A DNA stretch of 64,000 nt from positions 1 through 64,000 of the forward strand of contig NZ_JAJNAL010000027.1 in assembly GCF_022271405.1 (NCBI RefSeq). The letters run 5' to 3'. This stretch comes from Rhodopseudomonas infernalis. GTDB taxonomy: Bacteria > Pseudomonadota > Alphaproteobacteria > Rhizobiales > Xanthobacteraceae. The position numbers and the translations under genes were made by a program. The notes under the pieces were generated by a model, which saw only the letters and a program-made list of their open reading frames with translations, was not told the origin of the DNA and made no database searches. The first letter of the stretch is position 1. Each line of letters starts with the position of its first letter. Shown one piece after another: positions 39,369 through 45,691 of this stretch.

Positions 39369-41183
39369 CTACGCCCGCAGCCGCCGTGCCGCGGGGTAGT
39401 TCATCACCCGAGGCACCTTGCCGGCGCGAAGGGCCTGCTGCATGCCTTGCCAGTACTCGGCCTGCAGCAGTTCCGGATGCGCGTCGCGGAAGACGCGGCG
39501 CAACGACGGGTCGTCGATGCGCAGGCCCTCGAGCATGTCTGAAGGACGGAACACGACGCCGTCCTCGAACTCGACGCGGGGCTCGTCAGGGCTGCGGACC
39601 TTGACGTCGGTCAGCGGCTCGACCGCGTCGTAGTCGAACAGATACACCTTGCGGATGCGGCTGACGCCGTAGTTGCGGCCGTCGAGATCCTTGTTGAAAA
39701 TGTCGGCGGCTGCGTTGTTCTTGATGCAGTCGCCGAGATTGATCACCGCGGCGCGGGCATCGACTTGCCTCGCGGTCGACAGATACAGCGGCAGCGGCGT
39801 CAGCTTGATCTGCACGATCAGATGCCGGAACACCAGCGCGCCGCGCTCCATCGTCACCGTGCCGATGCCGGCCTCGAGCAGCTCGTCGAGCAGGTCGGGC
39901 GCGAACATCGTGCGGTCGAGCTTGACGTTGGAATAGATGATGTTGTCGAGCATCGAGCCGGCGCGGTCGATCTCGTGCACCAGATTGTATTTGCGCAGCA
40001 CCGCGTCGAGACCGTCGAAGTAGTCGAACTTGTAGTCGTCGGTCGGGTGGTCGCGGATGATCTTCAGCACATAGGCCGAGGACGGCATGGTGAAGGCGAT
40101 CGCCACCGTACCCTTGAAGCCCGGCGCGGTGGCGAGGCGCTCCTTGGTCCTATGATGCTCGGCGAGGATCTCGGTCATCACCGCGACCTTGCCGAGATGA
40201 TGGAAGCCGATGCAGGAATATTGCGTGCCGAGCGGACGCTTCGGCATCAGCTCATAGAGCAGCCGCGCCAGCTCGTGATAATGCGGGTTGGTGGCGTGGT
40301 AGTTGGCCAGCGTCGATGAGAACGCGAATTGCAGCTCGTCGGCGTCGGTGAGCACGGCGTCGACCACGAGGCCGCCGTCCTCGTTGAGCAGCGCGATCAG
40401 CAGCGGGATGCTGCGCATCGGCCTGTCGGCCTGGTCGCGAAGTTTGACACGGCCGATCAGGCAGGCGCCGCGATTGCGGAAGAAGCCGGACTGGGCAATC
40501 TCAATCCGTGCAGGTTCGCCGTCGCGCGGGCCGAGCGGCTCCAGCGCAGCCTGAAGGGCGGCGGCCGCCAGCGCTGCGTCGCCATCCAGATCCCGCCACG
40601 GCGCATCCAGACCGGCGCCCGCGAGGATGTCGCGGATCACCGCCGGCCGGATCGGCAACGTCGTCACGGTGGCGGACAGGATGGCTGCGGACGACGCCGG
40701 CGGACGGGCCGCCGGGCCGGAATCGTAGGACACCGGCCGCCACTCGTCGCCCACCAGCTTGCGGCGCAGCGAATGCCAGAACGCGAAGGCGAAGTCGGCC
40801 TCGTAGCGGCCGGCGATCGCCGCCAGCAGCTCGGCCTCGGCGCGGGCCCACAGCTGCTCGTCCTTGACGAGCTCCGGCAGCCCGGCCTTCAGCGGCGGGA
40901 CCAGCTGGTCGATGCAGGTGGTGTAGAGCCCGATGCGGACCTTCGACAGCCGCACCGTCAGGGCCCAGTCGCGGGCCTCGAACGCTGCCTTGGCGAGCGC
41001 CGGAATTTTCCGCGACACCGCGTAGTAATGATCGAACGCTTCGAGCACCAGCCGCGCCAGAATGCGCGCCTGATCGTCCGGATCGTCGCCGCGCACCAGC
41101 GCGTCGAGCAGATCGGCATCCGGCTCGGCGATGCGAGTGGCAAGGTCGATCTCGGGAGAGAGCGGGTGCGTGCTGGCGATCAT
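39369..41183 (-). CDS. aceK: isocitrate dehydrogenase kinase/phosphatase
   Basis: A 604-residue bifunctional enzyme that phosphorylates and dephosphorylates isocitrate dehydrogenase to route carbon into the glyoxylate shunt. The kinase ATP-binding region APGFKGTVAIAF with the lysine in VLKIIRD is intact, and the C-terminal half carries MERGALVFRHLIVQIKLTPL and VFRDAHPELLQAEYW. It is slightly longer than the E. coli protein (578) through its N-terminus. The aceA and aceB genes are not adjacent. The start at 41183 is preferred to the longer frame to 41339, which overlaps the methyltransferase start. Confidence 0.93.
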   Translation of the reverse strand: MIASTHPLSPEIDLATRIAEPDADLLDALVRGDDPDDQARILARLVLEAFDHYYAVSRKIPALAKAAFEARDWALTVRLSKVRIGLYTTCIDQLVPPLKAGLPELVKDEQLWARAEAELLAAIAGRYEADFAFAFWHSLRRKLVGDEWRPVSYDSGPAARPPASSAAILSATVTTLPIRPAVIRDILAGAGLDAPWRDLDGDAALAAAALQAALEPLGPRDGEPARIEIAQSGFFRNRGACLIGRVKLRDQADRPMRSIPLLIALLNEDGGLVVDAVLTDADELQFAFSSTLANYHATNPHYHELARLLYELMPKRPLGTQYSCIGFHHLGKVAVMTEILAEHHRTKERLATAPGFKGTVAIAFTMPSSAYVLKIIRDHPTDDYKFDYFDGLDAVLRKYNLVHEIDRAGSMLDNIIYSNVKLDRTMFAPDLLDELLEAGIGTVTMERGALVFRHLIVQIKLTPLPLYLSTARQVDARAAVINLGDCIKNNAAADIFNKDLDGRNYGVSRIRKVYLFDYDAVEPLTDVKVRSPDEPRVEFEDGVVFRPSDMLEGLRIDDPSLRRVFRDAHPELLQAEYWQGMQQALRAGKVPRVMNYPAARRLRA

Positions 41184-41337
41184 CGCCGGATGATGCGCCG
41201 GATCGGCAGGCGGCAGTGTGATCTGTCGCAAATAGATATCGTCCGTCCGGAACCGATGGCACGAGCACGAGCTCGCATCGGGCAATAAATTCGGTCTTGC
41301 CAAATACGAACAATTCGGGAACATTGGCGGCGAGGGC

Positions 41338-42513
41338 ATGATGAAAATTGCAGGACTTTTCGCTGGAATCGGAGGGCTCGAGCTCGGTCTTCATCGGGCT
41401 GGGCACGAGACAGTGATCCTGTCCGAGATCTGGCAACCGGCCGGTGCAGTGCTGGAGCATCGCTTCAAGGGCTTACCGAACGTCGGTGATGTCGCGACGT
41501 TGACGTCGCTGCCCTCCGAAGTCGAGCTGATGACGGCCGGCTTTCCCTGCCAGGATCTCAGCCAGGCCGGCAAGACCGCCGGGATCAAGGGCGGCAAGTC
41601 GGGGCTGGTGACGCATGTTTTCCGGCTGATCGATCGCAGTCGGCCGAAATGGGTACTGCTGGAAAACGTCTCGTTCATGCTCCGCCTCGACGGCGGTAGT
41701 GCAATGACCCGGCTGGTCTCCGAATTCGAAAGTCGCGGATATCGCTGGGCCTATCGCGTCGTGAACTCGCTGAGCTTCCTGCCACACCGGCGCGCCCGCG
41801 TGTTCTTTCTCGCAAGCATCGAGGGCGATCCGGCCGATGTTCTGCTGGTCGACGATGCGGTGCCTGACCAGCTTCAGACCAATCTCCAAAGCCACGCGCA
41901 CGGGTTCTATTGGACCGAGGGCACGCGCGGCCTGGGATGGGCGCCCGACTGCGTGCCGACGCTCAAGAACGGCTCCACGGTGGGGATTCCATCGCCCCCG
42001 GCGATCCTGATGCCCAACGGTGAGATTGTGACGCCGGATATCCGCGACGCCGAGCGGCTTCAGGGACTTCCCGCCGATTGGACCAAACCGGCCGAGAAGG
42101 TCGCCCGGGCTTCGTTTCGATGGTCGCTGGTCGGCAACGCCGTCAGCAAGCCGATCGCGGCTTGGATTGGACAACGGTTGAACGCGCCCGGAACATACGA
42201 CCGATTGCGCGACGGCGGCCGCGTCGTCAGCGGCAACTGGCCCAAAGCGGCGCGGTCCGACGGCAAACTCTGCTGTGAAGTCGCGATCTCCGAATTTCCG
42301 AAATGGGCGAAGCGACCGAACCTTCAGGACTTCCTGCGCTACGAGCCGAAACTCTTGTCGGCCCGCGCCACGGCCGGGTTTTTGTCTCGGATCGAGAAAA
42401 GCAGCTTGCGGTTCGTGCCGGGCTTCAAGGATAGGGTGCGATCTCATCTCGATCATATCCGAGCCATTGACGCCTTCGTCCAGGAAGGCCGCACACTGCT
42501 TGCCGCCGAATGA
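41338..42513 (+). CDS. DNA (cytosine-5) methyltransferase
   Basis: A 391-residue C5 methyltransferase. Motif I is GLFAGIGGLELGL (7-19), motif IV is GFPCQDLSQAGKT with nucleophile C71, ENV begins at 109, RRARVFFLAS is at 151-160 and GNAVS at 266-270. The target-recognition stretch (about 161-235) is short, and about 120 residues follow motif X as a C-terminal extension that I do not recognise. It overlaps the Vsr-like gene by ATGA. The start may be the second ATG at 41341, better spaced from GAGGG. It probably modifies a site that its companion nuclease would cut. Confidence 0.93.
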   Translation: MMKIAGLFAGIGGLELGLHRAGHETVILSEIWQPAGAVLEHRFKGLPNVGDVATLTSLPSEVELMTAGFPCQDLSQAGKTAGIKGGKSGLVTHVFRLIDRSRPKWVLLENVSFMLRLDGGSAMTRLVSEFESRGYRWAYRVVNSLSFLPHRRARVFFLASIEGDPADVLLVDDAVPDQLQTNLQSHAHGFYWTEGTRGLGWAPDCVPTLKNGSTVGIPSPPAILMPNGEIVTPDIRDAERLQGLPADWTKPAEKVARASFRWSLVGNAVSKPIAAWIGQRLNAPGTYDRLRDGGRVVSGNWPKAARSDGKLCCEVAISEFPKWAKRPNLQDFLRYEPKLLSARATAGFLSRIEKSSLRFVPGFKDRVRSHLDHIRAIDAFVQEGRTLLAAE

Positions 42514-42935
42514 GTTCGACCGCCTGCGAGACGCCGGTCGACCCCATGCGGTCGGCCTTGATGCGGCGGGTTCGGCAAAAGGGTACGCAGGCGGAGGACG
42601 ACGTCGCCGACGTGCTGCGTGAACTGGGCTTGCGCTTCCGACGAAACGTGCGGACGCTCCCCGGCTCACCCGATTTTGCCAACAAGACCCACCATTGGGC
42701 GATATTCGTCAACGGCTGCTTCTGGCATCGTCACCAGGGATGCCGTCGGACGACGACGCCGACCCGCAATCGGGAGTTCTGGCTGGCCAAGTTCGCCGCG
42801 AACGTCAAGCGTGACGGGGTCAAGGCGCGCTTGCTGCGTACGATGGGGTTCAGGGTGGTGACGATCTGGGAATGCGAAACACGGGACCTCGGGAAGGTCC
42901 GGAAGCGGCTGAAGCCGATCGTAGACTCTCGATGA
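42510..42935 (+). CDS. vsr: very short patch repair endonuclease (Vsr-like)
   Basis: A 141-residue Vsr-type nickase that in E. coli repairs T-G mismatches arising from 5-methylcytosine deamination. The Vsr motifs are LPGSPDF with the metal-binding D55, IFVNGCFWHRHQGC and VVTIWECETR. The residue corresponding by my alignment to E. coli His64 is Asn68 (VNGCFWH versus THGCFWH), a variant that also occurs in other family members as I recall. Overlaps by ATGA with both neighbours couple it tightly to the methyltransferase and the third gene. Confidence 0.88.
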   Translation: MSSTACETPVDPMRSALMRRVRQKGTQAEDDVADVLRELGLRFRRNVRTLPGSPDFANKTHHWAIFVNGCFWHRHQGCRRTTTPTRNREFWLAKFAANVKRDGVKARLLRTMGFRVVTIWECETRDLGKVRKRLKPIVDSR

Positions 42936-43729
42936 AGACTCGTATCCGACCACCCATTTCCGAAGACATCGACAGTATCGCGACCGAGCTTCGTTACGCT
43001 GGTGATCGCGAGATGATCGCATCCGTCAACGAAAAGGTCACCGAGTTCGTCAAGAATCTCGATATTCCTCCAGAGTACCGAAGCTACATCGAATTCGGAC
43101 GCGCCGTGAAGCACCGCTTCGCGCATCGGCTCTCCACGTGCCTCGCACAAAAGATCGCCGAAGGATTGAGGCCGAGATTTCGCGGCATTCTACCCGACGA
43201 AACCGGAGCCAAGCACGAGTCGCGGTCGGCCTCGGCGAGCGGAATGAAGAAGCTCGATGTCAACTACTCGAATGCGCAAATCGGACTGGGGCTCGGCGTC
43301 TCGGTCAAGACGTTGAATTTCCGTGACGAAGGAACGGGCCGGTTCACCAAGAACGTGAAGCGTCTCGACGGAGAGCTGAGGGCGGAAGCGCAAGACTATC
43401 ACCAGAGACAACCGTACGCAGTGCTTGCTGCCTTGGTATTCATGCCGGGAGAAGCCGCGCGCGACAGCCAGAGCAGGTCGAGCCTACGCCACGCTTGGGA
43501 GGTGTTCGAGCGCCGTACGGGGCGACGGTCGACCAACGACGATCCGAGTAGATTCGAACGCATGTGGCTTTGCGTGTATGAAACAACCCCGGAGGCGTTC
43601 GGCAGCTGTCGGTGTTTCAATGTCGAGAACGAATTTCCGAGTACAGGTATTCCCGACGTTGCTACGACCCTGTCGAATGTCCTTCTGGAGATCGAAGCGG
43701 AATTCAACGCGCGCAATAAATCGCGTTGA
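42932..43729 (+). CDS. unknown protein in a methyltransferase-Vsr operon, possible restriction endonuclease
   Basis: A 265-residue protein that I do not recognise. Central residues 96-130 resemble a PD-(D/E)xK nuclease core: E96 in KHES, D109 in KKLDVNY, a glycine-rich turn and K126 in LGVSVKT, then FRDEGTGRFTKNVKR. The position after dcm and vsr, with an ATGA overlap, is where a cognate type II restriction enzyme usually lies. Base composition drops here (29 G/C in 60 at 43021-43080) relative to housekeeping neighbours, so transfer is likely. The N-terminal 90 residues are mostly helical. Nuclease function is inference, not shown. Confidence 0.6.
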   Translation: MKTRIRPPISEDIDSIATELRYAGDREMIASVNEKVTEFVKNLDIPPEYRSYIEFGRAVKHRFAHRLSTCLAQKIAEGLRPRFRGILPDETGAKHESRSASASGMKKLDVNYSNAQIGLGLGVSVKTLNFRDEGTGRFTKNVKRLDGELRAEAQDYHQRQPYAVLAALVFMPGEAARDSQSRSSLRHAWEVFERRTGRRSTNDDPSRFERMWLCVYETTPEAFGSCRCFNVENEFPSTGIPDVATTLSNVLLEIEAEFNARNKSR

Positions 43730-43736
43730 CGCCCCC

Positions 43737-45548
43737 TCAGCTATCCACCTTCAGCGCCGCAATAAACGCCTCCTGCGGAATATCCACCTTGCCGAACTGG
43801 CGCATCTTTTTCTTGCCCTCCTTCTGCTTCTCCAGAAGTTTGCGCTTTCGGGTGATGTCGCCGCCGTAGCATTTGGCGGTGACGTCCTTGCGCAGGGCGC
43901 GGACGGTTTCGCGGGCGATGACCTTGCCGCCGATCGCCGCCTGGATCGGGATCTGGAACATGTGCGGCGGGATCAGCTCTTTCATCTTTTCGACCATGGC
44001 GCGGCCGCGGCCTTCGGCGCGGGTGCGGTGCACCAGCATCGACAGCGCGTCGACCGGCTCGGCGTTGACGAGGATCTGCATCTTGACCAGATCGGCCGGC
44101 TTGTAGTCGGTGAGATGATAGTCGAACGAGGCGTAGCCCTTCGACACGCTCTTGAGGCGGTCGTAGAAGTCGAACACCACTTCGTTGAGCGGCAGTTCGT
44201 ACTTCACCATCGCGCGGGCGCCGACGTAGGTCAGCTCTTTCTGATTGCCGCGGCGGTCCTGGCACAGCTTCAGCACCGAGCCCAGATACTCGTCGGGCGT
44301 CAGGATCGTCGCCTCGATCCACGGCTCGTCGATCTGGGCGATCTTGACCACGTCCGGCATGTCGACCGGATTGTGGATCTCGATCTCGGAGCCGTCGGTG
44401 AGCTTCATGTGATAGATGACGCTCGGCGCGGTCGCGATCAGATTGAGATCGAACTCGCGGCTGAGCCGCTCCTGAATGATCTCCAGATGCAGCAATCCTA
44501 GGAAGCCGCAGCGGAAGCCGAAGCCTAGGGCGGCCGAGGTCTCCATCTCGAACGAGAAGCTCGCATCGTTGAGGCGCAGCTTGCCCATCGCGGCGCGCAG
44601 CGTTTCGAAATCGTCGGCGTCGACCGGGAACAGGCCGCAGAACACCACCGGGATCGCCGGCTTGAAGCCCGGCAGCATGTCGGTGATCGGCTTCTTGTCG
44701 TCCGTGATGGTATCACCGACGCGGGTGTCGGCGACTTCCTTGATGCCGGCGGTGATGAAGCCGATCTCGCCGGGGCCGAGTTCGTCGACCGTGGTCATCT
44801 TCGGCGTGAAGTAGCCGACGCGTTCCAGATCATAGGCCGCATTGGTGCCCATCATCCGGATGCGCTGGCCCTTCCGCATCACGCCGTCGACGATCCGCAC
44901 CAGCACCACGACGCCGAGATAGACGTCGTACCAGCTATCCACCAGCAGCGCCTTGAGCTGGGCGTCGCGGTCGCCCTTCGGCGGCGGCAGGCGGGTGACG
45001 ATGGCTTCCAGCACATCGGGCACGCCGATGCCCGTCTTTGCCGAGATCATCACCGCGTCGGAGGCGTCGAGCCCGATCACGTCCTCGATCTGCTGCTTGA
45101 CCTTGTCGGGCTCGGCGGCCGGCAGATCGACCTTGTTGAGCACCGGCACGATCTCGTGGCCGGCGTCGAGCGCGTGATAGACGTTGGCGAGCGTCTGCGC
45201 CTCGACGCCCTGCGAGGCGTCGACCACCAGCAGCGAGCCCTCGCAGGCGGCCAGCGACCGCGACACCTCGTAGGCGAAGTCGACGTGGCCGGGGGTGTCC
45301 ATCAGGTTGAAGATGTAGGCCTTCCCGTCCTTGGCGCGGTAGTTCAGGCGCACGGTCTGCGCCTTGATGGTGATGCCGCGCTCGCGCTCGATGTCCATCG
45401 AATCGAGCACCTGCTCCTTGCCGGCCATTTCACGGTCGGACATGCCGCCGGTGATCTGGATCAGGCGGTCGGCGAGCGTCGACTTGCCATGGTCGATATG
45501 GGCGACGATGGAGAAGTTGCGGATGTTGTCGAGGGGAGCGGTGGCCAT
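43737..45548 (-). CDS. lepA: elongation factor 4 (back-translocating GTPase)
   Basis: A 603-residue translational GTPase. G1 is AHIDHGKST near the N-terminus, G2/G3 RGITIKAQT and DTPGH, and G4 NKVD. The C-terminal LepA-specific domain holds [18 protein letters not shown]. It remobilises stalled ribosomes. ATG at 45548 ([20 protein letters not shown]) fits the family start; a longer frame to 45671 is non-coding. The restriction cassette abuts its 3' end: the third cassette gene stops at 43729, only seven bases away. Confidence 0.96.
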
Positions 45549-45691
45549 GGTCGCGAGATAGCACCCGGACTCCGGCCCGGCAAGGCGAACGGAAGGCGCA
45601 ACCGCCCGAAAAACCGCCGCTTTTGGCGCGCTTGACGGGAGCCGGCGAACCCGGTGATGTCCGCCGCCCATGCCTCGAGCCCAGGGTTCGG

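Follow-up and report, generated by a model that had tools for sequence, protein, structure and literature searches.

A 64,000-nucleotide stretch of Rhodopseudomonas infernalis (contig NZ_JAJNAL010000027.1, positions 1 to 64,000, hereafter the window; the genome comprises 5.5 Mb in 87 contigs) carries between aceK and lepA a cassette of three genes, which we call M, V and R. M encodes a DNA (cytosine-5) methyltransferase, V a Vsr-type repair endonuclease, and R a protein of a family for which we found no name. The cassette is very probably a type II restriction-modification (R-M) system of the order M-V-R, in which R is the predicted nuclease, probably with a permuted active site, and in which R alone has probably been swapped beneath a retained M-V pair.

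M and V are readily recognisable, as an earlier reading made from the sequence alone (the sequence-only reading) had stated. M matched PF00145 (E 5e-43; 148.1 bits against a cut-off of 22), exceeded the cut-off of TIGR00675 (133 against 100.65 bits) and matched the PADLOC model PDLC03324 with an E-value of 5e-200; V lay above the cut-offs of both TIGR00632 (110 against 97.85 bits) and PF03852 (71.9 against 27 bits). M carries PCQ, ENV, RRARV and GNAV, which we take to be motifs of 5-methylcytosine (m5C) methyltransferases (MTases), and it passed all four motif checks; of 31 MTases, three (L082, L085 and L091) each failed a single check. The name dcm, which that reading had given to the gene, holds for the m5C superfamily, though only as its generic name. 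Compared with the closest M-bearing genome, G496, the ratio of nonsynonymous to synonymous substitution rates of M is ~0.065, and by this measure M is under purifying selection.

The third protein had been described as lacking a recognisable family, and so it proved in the libraries. R of the window matched nothing in Pfam, NCBIfam or PADLOC and gave only a chance-level match among PDB sequences (E 0.86), while 73 aligned family members searched against Pfam, NCBIfam and PHROGs yielded only stray matches, one or two members each. Its genomic company was more informative. Relatives were found from R-type sequences only, and their neighbours were typed by phmmer; a scan of species genomes with an alignment termed A2 returned 96 relatives, of which 80 were kept, and four from viral contigs brought the set to 84. 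An MTase lies near R in 82 of the 84, within 0.5 kb in 81 and at 1.2 kb in one (L085); the other two R genes begin at a contig end. All 21 near relatives of R (L072-L092, including L079 of Rhodopseudomonas pentothenatexigens and L081 of R. palustris XCP) have an m5C MTase like M, and 17 of them have a Vsr in the locus, some with weak matches down to 4e-11 and three without the GCFWH-type motif. The 63 distant relatives (L093-L155) have an N6-adenine MTase in 61 cases and a Vsr in none. Two R subfamilies, A and B, are thus tied to different methylation chemistries, m5C and N6-adenine. Vsr occurs only beside the m5C MTase, matching what its role in repair demands. In the near group the nearest M stands upstream on the same strand in 13 loci, downstream on the same strand in two and on the opposite strand in six, and such constant linkage without a fixed order argues for a functional pair. 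Because of this linkage we read R as the predicted restriction endonuclease of the system, the role that the sequence-only reading had proposed for it; apparently it represents a new family of such enzymes within a known kind of system.

The family is spread over records of Pseudomonadota, Planctomycetota, Myxococcota, Actinomycetota and Acidobacteriota. Among 397 genomes of the order, a sample that did not include the genus relatives, the search with R returned the window's own copy only; in genomes of the genus it gave five further matches, one of them a remnant. No R was found in phage records, and the phage matches of M were under 30% identity among the 15 of 548 matches listed. A viral scan yielded nothing with the single R sequence and four loci with alignment A2. 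Pairs of an N6-adenine MTase and R lie on four IMG/VR viral contigs (L152-L155). In plasmids, tblastn with R gave five records. The four that were opened align at 27-32% identity, and in each of them R overlaps an annotated N-6 DNA methylase gene by 14 nt; the fifth, from a second Pseudonocardia, has the same two gene names in its listing. Searching plasmids again with a protein of subfamily B added four weaker homologues, and two of the three opened (L163 and L164) follow an MTase.

The proposed active site of R emerged from an alignment (A3) of 73 of 85 R sequences, from which 12 (L100, L107, L111, L112, L113, L125, L126, L130, L143, L145, L149 and L151) had been dropped as partial, badly bounded or near-duplicates. 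Thirteen positions are invariant: S68, E96, D109, G118, L119, S124, K126, K140, N141, H157, P161, R198 and E209. A serine precedes xK in all 73 sequences, so that the canonical D...(D/E)xK triad is absent, and E152 is nearly invariant, being found in 100% of the rows of subfamily A and in 98% of those of subfamily B. Three more distant proteins linked to an MTase, L163, L164 and the only weakly similar L165 (Rhizobium etli), retain a D...SxK core with an acidic residue further on in the corresponding stretch (E-values for this comparison refer to a set of six proteins). AlphaFold models of window R and of a subfamily B protein reached predicted local distance difference test scores of 88 and 91.7. 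The window model runs in the order helix (55-79), strands (110-114 and 118-127), helix (140-159) and strand (164-172), and in the models D109 stands just ahead of a core strand, S124 and K126 at the end of the next strand and E152 in the helix that follows. The active site is therefore read, with due reserve, as probably a permuted PD...K...E arrangement of D109, S124xK126 and E152, and the motif together with the order of these elements makes membership of R in the PD-(D/E)xK superfamily likely.

The history of R differs from that of its neighbours. Between the window and G496, M is 95% and V 88% identical at the protein level, and R is 43% identical (46.5% in the best tblastn segment); the flanking proteins LepA and AceK share 94.6% and 86.5%. 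Measured along the DNA in 100-base windows, M and V show 84-96% identity and R drops to 32-70%, and by the lepA stop the value has recovered to 94%. Of 276 pairs of loci, this one differs most between its M and R identities. The M tree places the window within Rhodopseudomonas, as the sister of G496 (support 100/97). In the R tree, it groups with R proteins of Caulobacterales, planctomycetes and myxobacteria (support 93/94), and the remaining Rhodopseudomonas and Rhodoplanes R proteins follow their M proteins. A clade uniting window R with the Rhodopseudomonas R proteins was rejected by the approximately unbiased (AU) test (p-AU 2.4e-25, and 3.4e-12 with Rhodoplanes added), the hypotheses having been chosen after the first trees had been inspected. 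The joint before R differs as well: in the window it is an ATGA overlap, and in G496 a short gap separates R from the V stop. Because the trees reject a shared history of R and M, and because the fall in identity is confined to R, a distant homologue of outside origin probably took the place of R, and of R alone, in the lineage to which the window and the related genome G457 belong.

Such an exchange would be tolerable if the site of M were fixed and the new R cut that same site. The region of M in which m5C enzymes presumably read their site (residues 163-245) has a mean pairwise identity of 0.67 among the 31 MTases, where the catalytic residues 1-162 reach 0.64 and the C-terminal extension 0.45; after near-alike rows had been thinned to 18 that were <70% alike, the values were 0.64, 0.61 and 0.41. 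Target-recognition regions are usually the most variable part of such enzymes. Since this region is here as conserved as the catalytic part, the M family probably has one target and the exchanged R proteins are probably isoschizomers. For the same reason a new specificity, suggested by the sequence-only reading, is not indicated. With a single M target, an R of the same family acquired from a second such system would do the cell no harm even on arrival. Six loci whose M is 61-63% identical are consistent with harmless uptake of a same-target nuclease: in place of R they have, behind V, a convergent gene for a different protein of ~280 residues (in G500, G642, G625, G444, R. phaseoli and S. mexicanum). 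Its copies are 72-94% alike and contain KKNLDLVLC...ALEAKACMTAH, by eye a D...ExK-like stretch; one copy had no match in PADLOC and none of note in Pfam or PDB. We regard it as a candidate second nuclease family for the same M. The G625 copy aligns over its full length and may be broken, as it is absent from the list of open frames. Should the two subfamilies of R share a target, one containing both C and A would explain them, but this is a guess.

The proposed sequence of events can be stated as follows. M would methylate cytosine at one site and so protect the chromosome, R would cut the same site on incoming unmethylated DNA, and V would repair the T:G mismatches left by deamination of methylated cytosine. 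The former R would have given way to its 43% identical homologue while M and V stayed.

The junction between aceK and lepA is itself variable. We found lepA in all 16 genomes of the genus and M in five of these, the window included, each time with V, R and, immediately after R, lepA; on the opposite side stands aceK, in G420 with a hydrolase-like open reading frame (ORF) intervening. In a second genus, M-V-R stands beside lepA in G489 and G520. Because the same layout recurs at this junction, it is beyond chance. Eight of the 11 genomes without M show aceK across a gap of 0.6-4.3 kb within the fetched stretch; of the other three, one is cut off by its contig end and two lack aceK in the stretch examined. 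What fills the gaps varies: an ORF of ~290-340 residues, hydrolase-like by eye, occupies those of G609, G581, G573 and G595 and lies near lepA in G478 and G565. In 10 of the 11, the DNA matches the window again from 43729-43736 onwards. In G457 the match sets in earlier, at 43428 within R, and covers 773 bases at 97%, including the start of the lepA flank, so that all this genome has left of R is its 3' end. Beside lepA in G405, M-V stands without R. The differing gap contents and the G457 remnant mark the junction as a variable site from which the cassette can be lost by deletion. The insertion postulated by the sequence-only reading is thereby borne out, with different cargo in the M-less genomes where the gap could be seen, and a universally conserved arrangement is excluded. 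In three congeners (L061, L065 and L068) a pair of nameless ORFs of 260 and ~200-224 residues fills the gap; one copy of each had no match of note in PADLOC. In two others (L070 and L071), ORFs near lepA, beyond its stop, resemble what we take by eye to be DraT and DraG, which act in nitrogenase ADP-ribosylation.

The three genes, with the ATGA overlaps that the sequence-only reading had noted, are listed with their flanks and the proposed active-site codons in Table 1. The R frame in its longest reading begins at 42872, and its start is likely the ATG in the overlap at 42932, which gives 265 residues. The listed aceK start overlaps that of M. Homology to relatives mostly begins at residue 37-63 in tblastn, and the true start is probably near 41183. 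The last gene is the least GC-rich, as had been remarked: GC content is 0.571 for R, 0.627 for M, 0.638 for V and 0.663 for the 64-kb window.

Table 1. Features of the M-V-R cassette and its surroundings (window positions unless a locus is named).
Feature	Position	Strand	Basis
M, DNA (cytosine-5) methyltransferase, 391 aa	41338-42513	+	ORF, PF00145/TIGR00675
V, Vsr-type very-short-patch repair endonuclease, 141 aa	42510-42935	+	TIGR00632, PF03852
R, predicted type II restriction endonuclease of a family without a found name, 265 aa	42932-43729	+	linkage to MTase
ATGA overlap, M stop/V start	42510-42513	+	sequence
ATGA overlap, V stop/R start	42932-42935	+	sequence
D109 codon, proposed metal-binding aspartate of R	43256-43258	+	invariant in 73 aligned sequences
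S124-V125-K126 codons, proposed SxK part of active site	43301-43309	+	S and K invariant in 73 sequences
E152 codon, proposed displaced acidic residue	43385-43387	+	E in 100% of A rows and 98% of B rows
Exchange segment, approximate limits	42890-43735	.	low identity to G496 between high-identity flanks; trees
aceK flank	39369-41339	-	ORF; name by eye, tblastn to relatives
lepA flank	43737-45671	-	ORF; name by eye; stop is right edge of insertion
Second candidate nuclease family	L030, L031, L032, L033 (convergent behind V); L156:4548-5390 (-), L157:4548-5372 (-)		alignment

Relatives of the cassette genes occur in further settings. On a Mycolicibacterium plasmid (L161:2965-6248) a relative of M directly precedes an Eco57I-type MTase gene, which places two chemistries side by side. 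In Anaeromyxobacter oryzae the M-V-R set is followed by another, partial M frame and another Vsr (L088:5770-6710).

Several results weigh against our interpretation of the cassette. Foldseek searches gave no match at E <= 0.001, either for window R and one subfamily B member against the PDB or for window R against viral models. BbvCI and BstEII (with both models) and HincII (with the window model) appeared weakly among unrelated proteins and were not used as proof. From the structure prediction that the sequence-only reading had recommended, the expected order of elements and the conserved D...SxK...E set thus came out, but a significant nuclease fold match did not. The PADLOC REase_II model PDLC03558 was touched weakly by 15 of the 73 aligned members (best 2e-4), window R not among them. 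On a plasmid of Pseudomonas sp. FeN3W, the locus of an R homologue (L162:3863-4684) shows no MTase over the 8.5 kb seen. At some positions kept in 86-91% of its subfamily, for example 61, 62 and 114, window R has a different residue. The support for its group in the R tree is below the tool's mark of 95, with no firm sister within the group. Finally, observed/expected counts of all 4- and 6-base palindromes revealed no site avoided in M-bearing DNA only, the sample being 400 kb each of G496 and G541 (with M), 200 kb each of G573 and G581 (without M) and the window. The largest differences concerned AT-rich sites for which few copies were expected; CGATCG, GCCGGC and GTCGAC were alike in both groups, and CTCGAG was low in both.

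The lack of a significant sequence or fold match to any nuclease, together with the MTase-free homologue L162, would suit a third gene that encodes an accessory protein such as a regulator, an inhibitor or unrelated cargo. We consider this highly improbable, given the MTase near R in all 82 scan loci that could be tested, the retained D...SxK...E set, and the different protein with a D...ExK-like stretch that takes the place behind V at six related M-V loci. Somewhat more credit, though still little, is due to the view that R in its present form is inactive or has changed its specificity, leaving a solitary methyltransferase with its Vsr. R has been lost at such loci, as in G405 and G457, and window R ends ~20-25 residues before the R proteins of its congeners, besides having the altered conserved positions named above. 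Yet its frame is intact, D109, S124, K126 and E152 are all present, and an active R with another, unprotected specificity should kill its host. The exchange might also have run in reverse, the present R being the original one with its own M-V, which a Rhodopseudomonas M-V then overwrote. The trees show only discordance, and either part could be the newcomer. This direction is nonetheless unlikely: M and V are about as close to G496 as are the flanking core genes, and R keeps to the history of M at the remaining loci of Rhodopseudomonas and Rhodoplanes. That R is the most GC-poor part points the same way but weighs little, because the dissimilar R of G496 is also low (0.599). Replacement of R beneath a resident M-V pair is therefore the reading that we retain.

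R-M systems with a Vsr, and replacement of an R gene, are already known; the apparent novelties here are the family of the nuclease and an exchange confined to R. In the open literature, covered through titles and the beginnings of abstracts, we found no account of the R family, which REBASE, outside the scope of that search, may list as putative, and no description of a homologous R-only exchange in a Vsr-bearing system. XorII and similar systems unite an m5C MTase, a Vsr and a nuclease gene in one cluster, as does the window; the R of the window is of a family without a found name, and XorII was compared by description only. One source gives XorII as a CGATCG m5C MTase (PMC4390886), and a XorII-like target was among those considered for M. 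Enzymes of the CCGG family (NgoMIV, Cfr10I, SgrAI and PfoI) have been described with a permuted PD...K...D/E active site (PMC6344858). The D-K spacing of 17 in window R resembles the 18 of PfoI (D169 and K187) given there. Window R differs in having neither a sequence nor a significant fold match to these enzymes and in an acidic residue placed 26 residues after K; moreover, subfamily B of its family pairs with an N6-adenine MTase. As a significant fold match is lacking, we do not claim membership in the CCGG family.

Replacement of an R gene at an R-M locus, as in the window, has been described for Helicobacter and Campylobacter (hrgA and PabI; PMC4615327). The available text of that report does not call the incoming gene a homologue of the one it displaced, whereas window R shares 43% identity with its counterpart and occupies the same slot after an intact M-V. 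Operons of HEPN (MAE_28990), ParB and methylase genes are also on record (PMC3710099). DUF262 (ParB-like) and HEPN genes adjoin relatives of M, or of the pair formed by an N6 MTase and R, at L035, L036 and L038 (all convergent to M), at L002:6766-8602 and at L102, and none was seen in the window cassette. These calls come from annotation in L002, phmmer in L102, Pfam for the L036 HEPN gene and inspection by eye for the others; L038 has no HEPN frame among its listed ORFs.

The behind-V slot has been found in several states: empty (G405), reduced to a scar (G457), occupied by either of two diverged R genes (window and G496) or by an unrelated putative nuclease (six loci). We tentatively suggest, as a possibility that we would not yet favour, that M-V cassettes of fixed target serve as landing pads at which R genes of the same specificity are taken up, lost and replaced. 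Any such R might be acceptable because the chromosome is already protected. M would then be the conserved core and R a hot-swappable part, its turnover perhaps driven by anti-restriction, and one R family would serve both m5C and N6-methyladenine systems.

In conclusion, R stands for a widespread family of predicted restriction enzymes that has no name in the four family libraries searched. Its two subfamilies, with their different methylation partners, let one ask how a nuclease changes the partner that protects its host. The R proteins of the window and G496 offer biochemistry a diverged, probably isospecific pair of enzymes. Furthermore, a swap of R by itself beneath a conserved M would provide a natural test of whether a restriction gene can move independently when its site is already protected.

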